From the NCBI RefSeq assembly GCF_947495925.1, contig NZ_CANMAU010000001.1, forward strand, positions 1-64,000: a DNA stretch of 64,000 nucleotides, written 5' to 3'. Below, one piece after another: positions 17,455 to 21,519 of the stretch (its first letter is position 1; the number at the start of each line of letters is the position of its first letter). This DNA comes from an uncultured Algibacter sp. GTDB lineage: Bacteria; Bacteroidota; Bacteroidia; Flavobacteriales; Flavobacteriaceae. The notes beneath the pieces were generated by a model that searched no databases, had not been told where the DNA came from, and was given only the letters and a program-made list of their open reading frames with translations. The position numbers and the translations under genes are program-made.

Positions 17455-19095
17455 ATGGCGTCCCTAAATCCGCTTTCTGGTAGTTTAGATTTAAGAAAAT
17501 CAAAACACTTACTAAGACGAGCTACTTTTAATTATACTAAAGCACAATTAGAAGTGTTTACAGGCATGACAGCAGCTGGAGCCGTTAGTAGTTTAATCTC
17601 ACAAACAGCAAATATATTACCAGAACCTTACGACCCTCTTCCTGTAGAAGCTCCTGATGGATTTTGGACTTCTGCACCGGAATTACCAAACTCTTTTGAT
17701 GACCAGCCAAGAAAACGAGGCATAGTTACCGGCTGGTGGTGGTACAATGCCATGAATCAAATAAGTTTAAAACATAAATTATCGTTTTTTTTACATACAT
17801 GCTTTACTGTTGGTAAAGACGATGGTGTTGGTGCATCCACATATTTTTTCGACTACGTACGGTTATTAGATTTCCATGCCTTCGGAAACATTAAAACCTT
17901 GGCAAAAAAAATCACTTTGGATAATGGTATGTTAGATTATTTGGACAATACCCAAAACAACAAAAACAATCCAAATGAAAATTATGCCAGAGAATATTTA
18001 GAACTCTTCACTATTCTGGAGGGCAAACAAATTGGCCAAGGAAATTATACAAACTATACCGAAATTGATATTCAACAAGCTGCAAAGGTATTTTCTGGGT
18101 TTAGAATACAAGAAGACCGAAGCATTCTTGATCCAGATACAGGAATCCCTATGGGTTACGTAAATTCGGATTTGCACGATACAGATAATAAAACATTTAG
18201 CGCTGCCTTTGGTAATCAAATAATTACAGGAAGAAATCTTGAAGCAGATATATTTGGTGAGTTAAGTGATTTTGTTGAAATGGTATTCGCTCAACCAGAA
18301 ACTGCCAAATCGTATTGTAGAAAGTTATATCGATATTTTGTAAAAAGCACCTGGGACGAAGAAGTAGAAACAGATATTATTGCTCCATTGGCACAGCTAT
18401 TAATTGACAATAATTATGAAATCTTGCCAGTTGTACAAACACTTCTTTCGAGTGAACATTTTTATGATAGTGATGATAGTGATGCCACAGATGAAATTAT
18501 TGGCAGTATTATAAAAAGCCCTTTACAATTAGTCTCAGAGGTGTGTTCCGTATTTAATGTGTCATACCCTAATCCGAATACAGATGCCTTAAAATTTTAT
18601 AATGACTTTTTCTATAAGTTTATTCATAACTCCTATTTTAGAGCAGCAGGTATGGATTTTTATAACCCTGAGGTTGTTGCCGGTTATCCTGCGTACTACC
18701 AAGAACCAAATTTTGATAGACACTGGTTCTCTTCAAATACGATTATTGGAAGGTATAGACTTATTGAAAGCTTGGTTGAAGGCAAAAACACTATAAATTC
18801 AGGAGATATGTACGCATCACTGGATACTGTTCTCTTTGTGAAAAATCAAATCTCCAATGCCTCAGACCCCAATTTACTAATATCTGAAATGGCCGATTTA
18901 TTATATACTGAATCTATAGATACCGATAGAATAAATTATTTTAAAAGCTTTTTACTAGATCAAGGTTTTCCAGACTATTACTGGACAACTACATGGAACA
19001 GTTACTTAAGCAATAGTGATGATATTACGGTTAGAACTCGTTTAGATGCTCTTGTCATTGCCATGATTAATGCAGCTGAATTTCAATTAATGTAA
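17455..19095 (+). CDS. DUF1800 family protein
   Basis: The protein belongs to the DUF1800 family: it starts with the conserved LRKSKHLLRRATF segment and contains LDNGMLDYLDNTQNNKNNPNENYAREYLELFT, where families of this type carry their best-conserved Asn/Glu residues. It is 546 residues long with no recognisable signal peptide. DUF1800 genes almost always precede a DUF1501 gene, as here, with a three-base gap. The function is unestablished; co-occurrence suggests both act on one extracellular or envelope substrate. The ATG at 17455 begins directly after an A-rich tract and no earlier start fits. Confidence 0.9.
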   Translation: MASLNPLSGSLDLRKSKHLLRRATFNYTKAQLEVFTGMTAAGAVSSLISQTANILPEPYDPLPVEAPDGFWTSAPELPNSFDDQPRKRGIVTGWWWYNAMNQISLKHKLSFFLHTCFTVGKDDGVGASTYFFDYVRLLDFHAFGNIKTLAKKITLDNGMLDYLDNTQNNKNNPNENYAREYLELFTILEGKQIGQGNYTNYTEIDIQQAAKVFSGFRIQEDRSILDPDTGIPMGYVNSDLHDTDNKTFSAAFGNQIITGRNLEADIFGELSDFVEMVFAQPETAKSYCRKLYRYFVKSTWDEEVETDIIAPLAQLLIDNNYEILPVVQTLLSSEHFYDSDDSDATDEIIGSIIKSPLQLVSEVCSVFNVSYPNPNTDALKFYNDFFYKFIHNSYFRAAGMDFYNPEVVAGYPAYYQEPNFDRHWFSSNTIIGRYRLIESLVEGKNTINSGDMYASLDTVLFVKNQISNASDPNLLISEMADLLYTESIDTDRINYFKSFLLDQGFPDYYWTTTWNSYLSNSDDITVRTRLDALVIAMINAAEFQLM

Positions 19096-19098
19096 GCT

Positions 19099-20727
19099 AT
19101 GAAAAGAAGAAATTTTATAAAACTCTCGGCATCAGCTTCGGTCATTGGTTTAACACCTTTGCAAATACAAGCTGCACTAAAAACGTTTATGCCATATGTA
19201 GAATGTCCAGATATTTCAAATCGAAAACTGGTACTAATTAATTTGGCTGGAGGAAACGATGGCTTAAACACTGTAGTTCCATTAAACCAATACGATATAT
19301 ACAGTAATTTAAGACCGACCATAAAAGTTCCAATTTCAGGAACAAATAAATATATTAATTTAGATAGTTCTCTACCTGACAATCAACAAATAGGTCTAAA
19401 CCCAGCACTTAAAGGATTTAAATCGTTGTATGATAAAGGTTGGCTTCGTGTTTTACAGTCTGTAGGCTATCCTTCTCAAAACAGAGGTCATTTTACTTCA
19501 ACAGATTTATATCTAACAGGAAATGATGGAAATAGTCTTTTAAATGGAGAAGATACAGGCTGGATGGGGCGCTTTATGGAACATTACTATCCAGATTTAA
19601 TTGTAGAAACCTATCCGCTTGCTATAGAAATAGGTTCGAATAAAACTTCATTAGGTTTTCACGCCGAAGAAGCACATGGCTTATCAATTAACCTTACAAG
19701 GCAAGACCCTGCAGGTTTTTATTCCATTTTAAATGGGTTAGCAGGTGCTCCGCCTATAAATTTCCCAGACTCAGATTACGGAGAACAGCTAAAGTTTTTA
19801 ACCGATACGGATTCATTAACTAACACCTATGCACAATCTATTTCTAGCTCCTTTAACAAAGGCCGAAACGATGTGACTTATCCAGATTCTGATTTATCCA
19901 ATCAGTTAAAAACAGTGGCAAGATTAATAAGTGGAGATTTAGGTACAAAAATTTACATGGTTCGTATTTCAGGTTTTGACACACATGATGCACAAGTACA
20001 AGGCCCTGGAGATGCCATAGGAAAACATTATAATTTATTATCAAGACTATCTGACAGCGTTGAAGCCTTTATAAACGACTTAGAAGGTCAAAATTTAGCC
20101 GACGATGTTGTAGGCCTTACTTTTTCGGAGTTCGGTCGAAAAGCTGCTGAAAACGGAAATTTTGGAACAGATCATGGCGAAATTGCTCCTATGTTTGTTT
20201 TTGGAAAAGCAGTTAAAGGAGGTGTTTCTGGAAACAACCCAGATCTTAAGGAAGCTACCAGTATGAATAACTACCAGCTAAAGACTGTTCAATATGACTA
20301 TAGGCAGACCTTTGCTACACTTCTTCAAAATTTTCTTGGTGCTGATGATGCTGTGATTGACACCACATTTTTTAATCATACATCAAATGAAAGCTATAAT
20401 AATTTAAAAATAGAGGAGTTAATAAAAGGAACGTACGATATTTCCACTGGTTGTGTACCAAGAAGGCCCGCTGCTTTAGATGAAAATAAACTATGGTTAG
20501 TATACCCAAATCCATTCAGAGATACGGTTAATATTGCAGGAGTAAGTACAGCTGATACTATTTCATATAGAATATATAATGCTGCTGGGAGGCTTTTAAT
20601 TGAAAAAACCGATGCCTTAATTGATGGAAAGGTACGCTTAAACCTTTATAACTTAAGCAGTGGTATTTATTTTTTTGAAATTCTATCTGGAGCTAAAAAA
20701 GAAGTCCATAAGGTTGTCAAAATATAA
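19099..20727 (+). CDS. DUF1501 family protein with Tat-like signal and T9SS type A sorting domain
   Basis: DUF1501 proteins are sulfatase/alkaline-phosphatase-fold relatives. The N-terminus MKRRNFIKLSASAS carries twin arginines in an RRxFIK context, as in Tat signals. The body includes LVLINLAGGNDGLNTVVP, the family start motif, and GFDTHDAQV. The last 75 residues (from LVYPNPFRDTVNIAG to SGIYFFEIL...HKVVKI) form a T9SS type A C-terminal sorting domain. It should therefore be exported folded, then secreted or attached to the surface by the type IX system. It is translationally close to the DUF1800 gene. Confidence 0.9.
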   Translation: MKRRNFIKLSASASVIGLTPLQIQAALKTFMPYVECPDISNRKLVLINLAGGNDGLNTVVPLNQYDIYSNLRPTIKVPISGTNKYINLDSSLPDNQQIGLNPALKGFKSLYDKGWLRVLQSVGYPSQNRGHFTSTDLYLTGNDGNSLLNGEDTGWMGRFMEHYYPDLIVETYPLAIEIGSNKTSLGFHAEEAHGLSINLTRQDPAGFYSILNGLAGAPPINFPDSDYGEQLKFLTDTDSLTNTYAQSISSSFNKGRNDVTYPDSDLSNQLKTVARLISGDLGTKIYMVRISGFDTHDAQVQGPGDAIGKHYNLLSRLSDSVEAFINDLEGQNLADDVVGLTFSEFGRKAAENGNFGTDHGEIAPMFVFGKAVKGGVSGNNPDLKEATSMNNYQLKTVQYDYRQTFATLLQNFLGADDAVIDTTFFNHTSNESYNNLKIEELIKGTYDISTGCVPRRPAALDENKLWLVYPNPFRDTVNIAGVSTADTISYRIYNAAGRLLIEKTDALIDGKVRLNLYNLSSGIYFFEILSGAKKEVHKVVKI

Positions 20728-20763: not shown

Positions 20764-21519
20764 ATGAAAACTCTAAAAACATTTTTTGGTTTAATCGCAT
20801 TTACAATTTTGATTTCTTCTTGTAATAGAAATTTACCAGAGGATTTCCTTTTTGGTAATTCTATTGAAAATGAGGACATAGAACAAAGATGGTGGATTTT
20901 AACGCATAAAAAGTATGAAAGCCCAGGAATATATCTTTATAACGAAACAACCTCGACTATTGAATTAGAACTTGAGTTACCCGAAAATTTAGAATCCCCT
21001 CATGCGCTGGCCTATGATGGAACATCTTTATGGGTTGGTGGAAATGGTGAAAACGAATCCATTTATGAGCTCAACCCTGAAACCGGAACCATTAGGTCCG
21101 AAATTAGAAACATAAGTACAGAAGGCATAGCTGTTCAAGATGAATATTTGTATTACTCCAATTTTAATAGCATTAACAAGATTGAAAAAAACGGCTCTCT
21201 TATTGAAGAAATACCAACAGACAACTCTACTTTAAATATTCCAGATATAGCAATTGATGGTAACAATCTATATTATTTACGCTATTCGGAAAATGAGTCT
21301 GTTATAAGACTAAATTTAAACAGTAAAATAGAACATACATTATCTGGGGTTGAAACAACAGGAACTTATTGTTTAGCCATTTTTAACAATGAAATAATCA
21401 CTGTAACTGCGCTAAATGAAATAAATCATAATATCCTACGCACAGGTCAATCTATCTCAACCAATGCTACAGAAATAAAAGGGTGGATTACTGCCATAGC
21501 TCCTTATTTTGATAAATAA
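20764..21519 (+). CDS. lipoprotein with beta-propeller-like repeats, unrecognised family
   Basis: The 251-residue protein has a lipoprotein signal with ILISSC. Segments such as SPHALAYDGTSLWVGGNGENESIYELNPETG, EGIAVQDEYLYYSNFNSINKI and DIAIDGNNLYYLRY look like NHL/propeller blades, so a small propeller is likely. No catalytic motif is seen. It starts 36 bases after the DUF1501 gene on the same strand and is probably co-transcribed with it. It ends 10 bases from the convergent argS stop, with no room for a separate terminator. Confidence 0.55.
   Translation: MKTLKTFFGLIAFTILISSCNRNLPEDFLFGNSIENEDIEQRWWILTHKKYESPGIYLYNETTSTIELELELPENLESPHALAYDGTSLWVGGNGENESIYELNPETGTIRSEIRNISTEGIAVQDEYLYYSNFNSINKIEKNGSLIEEIPTDNSTLNIPDIAIDGNNLYYLRYSENESVIRLNLNSKIEHTLSGVETTGTYCLAIFNNEIITVTALNEINHNILRTGQSISTNATEIKGWITAIAPYFDK

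Follow-up and report, generated by a model that had tools for sequence, protein, structure and literature searches.

A DUF1501 protein combining a Tat-type start with a T9SS type A sorting domain, and its signal-less DUF1800 partner, in a relative of Algibacter

The window analysed here comprises the first 64,000 nucleotides of contig NZ_CANMAU010000001.1 from an uncultured Algibacter sp. (assembly GCF_947495925.1). On its forward strand, a gene at 17455..19095 encodes a DUF1800 protein of 546 residues, which matches PF08811 over residues 18–544 (E 4.8e-70, 237 bits, over the gathering cut-off, covering positions 1–418 of the 419 in the profile). A spacer of three bases (19096..19098) separates it from a second gene on the same strand (19099..20727), which encodes a DUF1501 protein of 542 residues with a Tat-type start and a T9SS type A tail and is matched over cut-off by PF07394, PF18962 and TIGR04183. 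Translational coupling of the two genes is likely. Of 48 such gene pairs in relatives, 40 have an intergenic gap of −20 to 50 bases. The gene downstream of the pair (window 20764–21519) encodes a lipoprotein-like β-propeller protein with a weak match to DUF5050. In G297, a relative placed in the same genus as the source genome, a counterpart likewise lies behind the pair (L123:4575-5375); in G330 it does not.

The DUF1800 protein carries neither a signal peptide nor a C-terminal sorting domain (CTD). Its ATG is directly preceded by an in-frame TGA, which rules out an upstream start; since the Pfam domain begins at residue 18, there is no space for a signal peptide, and since this domain extends to residue 544 of 546 there is none for a CTD. 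The N-terminus has no hydrophobic stretch, like those of the Bacteroidota partners that we read. A conserved HLLRRATF sequence in DUF1800 was considered as a Tat motif and dismissed, since it belongs to a predicted helix within the Pfam domain and no h-region follows it. The structure model of this protein is fair (pLDDT 77), and the best match of its fold in the PDB was no better than E 0.6.

The DUF1501 protein matches PF07394 with 66.8 bits (cut-off 27), the alignment being restricted to profile positions 243–384. Its core (19249..20178, forward strand) contains catalytic-like motifs with residues resembling metal ligands: GGNDG (residues 51–55), HF (131–132), GFDTH (292–296), EFGR (344–347) and GTDHG (356–360). 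In an alignment of 12 DUF1501 members, GGNDG, HF, GFDTH, SEFGR and GTDHG are near-invariant. The AF2 model is of low confidence (pLDDT 56), and nearly all of its top matches in the PDB are LtaS, sulfatases and alkaline phosphatases, with TM-scores of at most 0.4. These near-invariant Asp/His motifs and the weak structural match suggest that DUF1501 could be a metal-dependent hydrolase or transferase of the alkaline phosphatase superfamily.

The N-terminus of the DUF1501 protein (MKRRNFIKLSASASVIGLTPLQIQAALKTF, beginning MKRRNFIK) bears the motif RRNFIK at residues 3–8 (19105..19122); in the form KRRNFIK it corresponds to the twin-arginine consensus S/T-R-R-x-F-L-K near the N-terminus. It is followed by a weakly hydrophobic h-region and a c-region (LSASASVIGLTPLQIQAAL; 19123..19179), which may be cleaved after QA. 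The curated Tat profile models TIGR01409 and PF10518 do not match the window protein itself, so that the basis of the Tat call is the motif together with its conservation and the h-region; among 12 relatives (E ≤ 1), TIGR01409 matches five and PF10518 four. We compared 80 homologous loci from Bacteroidota, Rhodothermota and Ignavibacteriota. The first arginine and the phenylalanine two residues past the second arginine are kept in all 80, the residue between the arginine pair and the phenylalanine varies freely, and the second arginine is present in 77 and replaced by lysine in three (11 and one, respectively, among the 12 aligned members). All 20 readable DUF1501 genes in plasmid records, which were used as outgroups (one from Bacteroidota, the rest from other phyla), also start with RR. 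Lysine in place of the second arginine was seen in the T9SS-tailed DUF1501 proteins of L127, L156 and L161 (Weeksellaceae or near) and of L211, and it is common to all of the Weeksellaceae-type examples seen; in the sequences compared, the second arginine is therefore not absolutely kept.

The h-region was also set against that of other T9SS cargo. In the window protein the maximum mean hydropathy over 12 residues is 1.47. The median for the 80 DUF1501 proteins is 1.54 versus 2.44 for 41 Sec-type T9SS cargo proteins of the source genome, and the two distributions do not overlap (U = 0; the 80 loci are kin, so the p-value overstates their independence, and a few N-termini that were mis-assigned or ended at contig ends were omitted). 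We found no Sec signal on the window DUF1501 protein, judged by its RRxFIK start and by an h-region lying below the whole range of the Sec-type cargo. In the remaining T9SS cargo, the signals are of the Sec type and their cores are clearly more hydrophobic.

At the other end of the protein, residues 468–541 of 542 (20500..20721, forward strand) form a T9SS type A sorting domain, with 45.6 bits for TIGR04183 (cut-off 23) and 52.8 bits for PF18962; a scan of the whole genome found it too. TIGR04183 matches all 12 aligned relatives (E ≤ 1) and PF18962 matches 11 of them. A CTD model derived solely from the remaining T9SS proteins of the source genome, and hence independent of DUF1501, recognises the tail in 75 of the 80 homologues; two of the five misses are lost to contig ends and three (L148, L158 and L162) have no recognisable tail. 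The arginine pair and the tail occur together in 72 of the 80 loci, including four (L138, L175, L179 and L180) counted by hand, as GTG starts or an offset had evaded the first pattern of the script. The sequence-only reading of this DNA had delimited the two open reading frames as given here and had described a Tat-like start joined to a T9SS type A domain in the DUF1501 protein; the near-invariance of the arginine pair and the score of the tail bear out this description.

This pairing seems to be confined to the DUF1501 family in the four genomes sampled, because among approximately 120 type A T9SS proteins with readable N-termini only two contain RRxF[LI][KQ] and both are DUF1501: the window protein and a protein of G250 (MKRRHFLQHAASS; L294). 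Other T9SS proteins with a loose arginine pair (L114, L252, L259, L287, L307 and L308) were inspected by eye and were not taken as Tat substrates, having either no F/L-K context or a strongly hydrophobic core; L252 (SRRHLLYW) is the least certain of these.

The source genome (3.84 Mb, nearly complete and close to Algibacter) encodes TatC, two TatA-type proteins and SprA (PF14349), and it contains 50 type A CTD matches. It also contains a second DUF1800–DUF1501 pair (C1:636785-639318; L033, L221), the DUF1501 protein of which begins MDRRKFLKQSSLASSLFFVPSFVKA (MDRRKFLKQSS), thus with a Tat start, and has no CTD; this pair can serve as an internal control for what the CTD does. A third DUF1501, of the planctomycete type, is encoded at C7:18689-19957. 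Co-occurrence of DUF1501 with TatC was tried as a test and was uninformative, as 296 of 297 Bacteroidota have TatC. In a tree of 70 DUF1501 cores (a quick tree, in which L218 was represented by a wrongly picked open reading frame and its long branch was ignored), the CTD-bearing proteins fall into one well supported group, which includes a few whose tail is not recognised; the CTD-less pairs of Bacteroidota form a separate group. As read from these sequences, the architecture of a Tat start with a T9SS tail is old.

The sequence-only reading had also noted that DUF1800 has no visible signal of its own, and this holds generally in Bacteroidota, where none of the pairs read has one. The N-terminus of DUF1800 could be measured in 48 pairs: the median distance from its start to the core is 17 residues, and a Sec-like stretch was found in none of the 48. 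In Chlorobiota/Ignavibacteriota, two DUF1800 proteins (L176 and L179) carry their own Tat-like start, with a short h-region. Two others (L181 and L162) have an RR start with no clear h-region. Among the plasmid records, at least eight proteobacterial pairs have a DUF1800 with a Sec or lipoprotein signal (Paraburkholderia L214, Cupriavidus L217, Vibrio L218, Sphingomonas L220 and L239, Novosphingobium L227, Phyllobacterium L228 and Agarilytica L238, with Vibrio L240 as a probable further case), and signal-less DUF1800 proteins are found in, for example, Persicobacter L215, Ensifer L230, Rhodobacter L234 and Paracoccus L235. Because several proteobacterial DUF1800 proteins are equipped in this way, DUF1800 probably works outside the cytoplasm; where it has no signal, it would most simply travel with DUF1501. 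In a plasmid of Thermus thermophilus (NZ_LR027520.1; L237), a transposase gene of the IS982 family interrupts the DUF1800 gene of the pair.

We propose that the DUF1501 protein acquires its fold in the cytoplasm, probably with a metal in an alkaline-phosphatase-like site, and that it would be exported by Tat and then secreted by the T9SS. Loading of the metal in the cytoplasm is a possible reason for the use of Tat. The DUF1800 protein, encoded directly upstream, would most likely bind DUF1501 in the cytoplasm and be carried through Tat as a ‘hitch-hiker’, and it may then accompany DUF1501 through the T9SS. We hold the route of DUF1501, Tat followed by T9SS, to be probable. This route had been put forward from the sequence alone, and the comparative data back it: the near-invariant arginine pair, the h-region separate from that of Sec cargo, the conserved tail, the presence of TatA, TatC and SprA, and the paralogue with a Tat start and no CTD. 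For DUF1800 as a Tat passenger, which was part of the same suggestion and is plausible because some Proteobacteria provide DUF1800 with a Sec or lipoprotein signal of its own, we see the chances as evenly balanced. A DUF1501 protein taking Tat and then the T9SS, with DUF1800 carried along, is likely to be the best explanation of the locus overall. A wider reading, in which DUF1501 belongs to a phylum-wide class of T9SS cargo exported folded and a single Tat signal and a single CTD take it across both membranes together with a DUF1800 partner that has neither, is put forward more tentatively and we would not yet favour it.

The N-terminus of DUF1501 might be an ordinary Sec signal in Bacteroidota, its arginine pair being a relic of the family and the protein reaching the T9SS unfolded. 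This would accord with the description of all T9SS effectors as Sec-dependent (PMC10202324, PMC12618676), with the lysine variant fixed in the Weeksellaceae relatives and with an h-region that is still moderately hydrophobic. In a relic, however, one would expect drift towards lysine, the usual basic residue of Sec signals in the source genome, whereas the arginine pair persists in 77 of 80 loci and the phenylalanine in all 80, across three phyla and around a residue that is free to vary; nor does the h-region overlap with that of the Sec-type cargo, and we therefore consider a Sec signal improbable. Still more improbable is that Tat exports DUF1501 and that an inactive tail leaves it in the periplasm. 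The CTD-less paralogous pair of the source genome, which is presumably periplasmic, and the three homologues in which no tail is recognised speak for this fate, but a model derived from other cargo detects a tail in 75 of the 80 loci and the window tail scores about twice the cut-off.

The main rival to DUF1800 travelling with DUF1501 concerns the partner itself, which could be a cytoplasmic chaperone or maturation factor of a Tat substrate, in the manner of DmsD and TorD for molybdoenzymes, and never be exported. The conserved pairing, the adjacent upstream gene and the signal-less state of DUF1800 in the Bacteroidota pairs would all suit such a role. The Sec or lipoprotein signals of several proteobacterial DUF1800 proteins and the Tat-like starts of the two from Chlorobiota/Ignavibacteriota would, on the other hand, be needless for a chaperone confined to the cytoplasm, and we regard this role as rather unlikely. 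On the preferred reading, DUF1800 would leave the cytoplasm bound to DUF1501.

Hitch-hiker complexes of the Tat system, such as E. coli hydrogenase 2, consist of one subunit with a Tat signal and one without, encoded by adjacent genes. The present pair resembles them in having one Tat-signalled protein, one signal-less protein, adjacent genes and a partner apparently bound outside the cytoplasm. It differs in that the proteins are not redox enzymes, that a second step across the outer membrane, by the T9SS, would be needed and that the complex is putative. Some Tat-exported proteins, for instance Pseudomonas phospholipases, are then taken up by type II secretion, which handles folded proteins at the outer membrane. 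The route proposed for DUF1501 would likewise have two steps, but the outer-membrane step would be that of the T9SS with its C-terminal domain.

A conserved DUF1800–DUF1501 operon with a Tat motif on DUF1501 was noted in 2016 in Proteobacteria with chitin synthases (PMC5122149). The present pair shares both domains, the operon arrangement and the Tat motif with that family; the description consulted makes no mention of a T9SS tail, whereas here DUF1501 bears a type A CTD and DUF1800 has no signal of its own. The sorting domain (TIGR04183/PF18962) is shared with T9SS type A cargo such as RgpB, RemA and AmyB. Known cargo of this type is described as Sec-only, while DUF1501 here has a Tat-type signal. 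The statement in the sequence-only reading that most T9SS cargo uses Sec is correct and, if anything, too cautious: according to T9SS papers of 2023 and 2025, every effector bears a Sec-dependent signal peptide (PMC10202324, PMC12618676). Our literature search, in which subscription papers were thinly covered, found no paper on Tat-exported T9SS cargo, which is accordingly weak evidence. New here are the conservation of the pairing of Tat start and tail across the phylum, its restriction to DUF1501 among the cargo sampled, and a partner that has lost, or never had, its own signal. If the proposed route is correct, a conserved Tat-signalled family would break the rule, given in recent T9SS papers, that all effectors use Sec and fold in the periplasm, and would constitute a testable exception to it. 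It would give direct evidence that the T9SS takes substrates that have folded before entering the periplasm, perhaps together with a bound partner, and would place the little-known DUF1501–DUF1800 pair at the cell surface in Bacteroidota.

Finally, the Tat motif is preceded in one subgroup (L128, L129, L131 and L133) by a long stretch rich in His, Asp and Glu that starts from MCD and leads into a textbook motif, SRRSF[LM]Q. Long, charged n-regions with the same residues, starting with MC before the Tat motif, also occur in L203 and in L032, the planctomycete-type DUF1501 of the source genome (G000:C7); MCDTHNTSPYKGLEHDGHDLEHKTWSRRSFLQ is an example from the whole set. This type of n-region is conserved beyond what a Tat signal needs, and perhaps binds metal.
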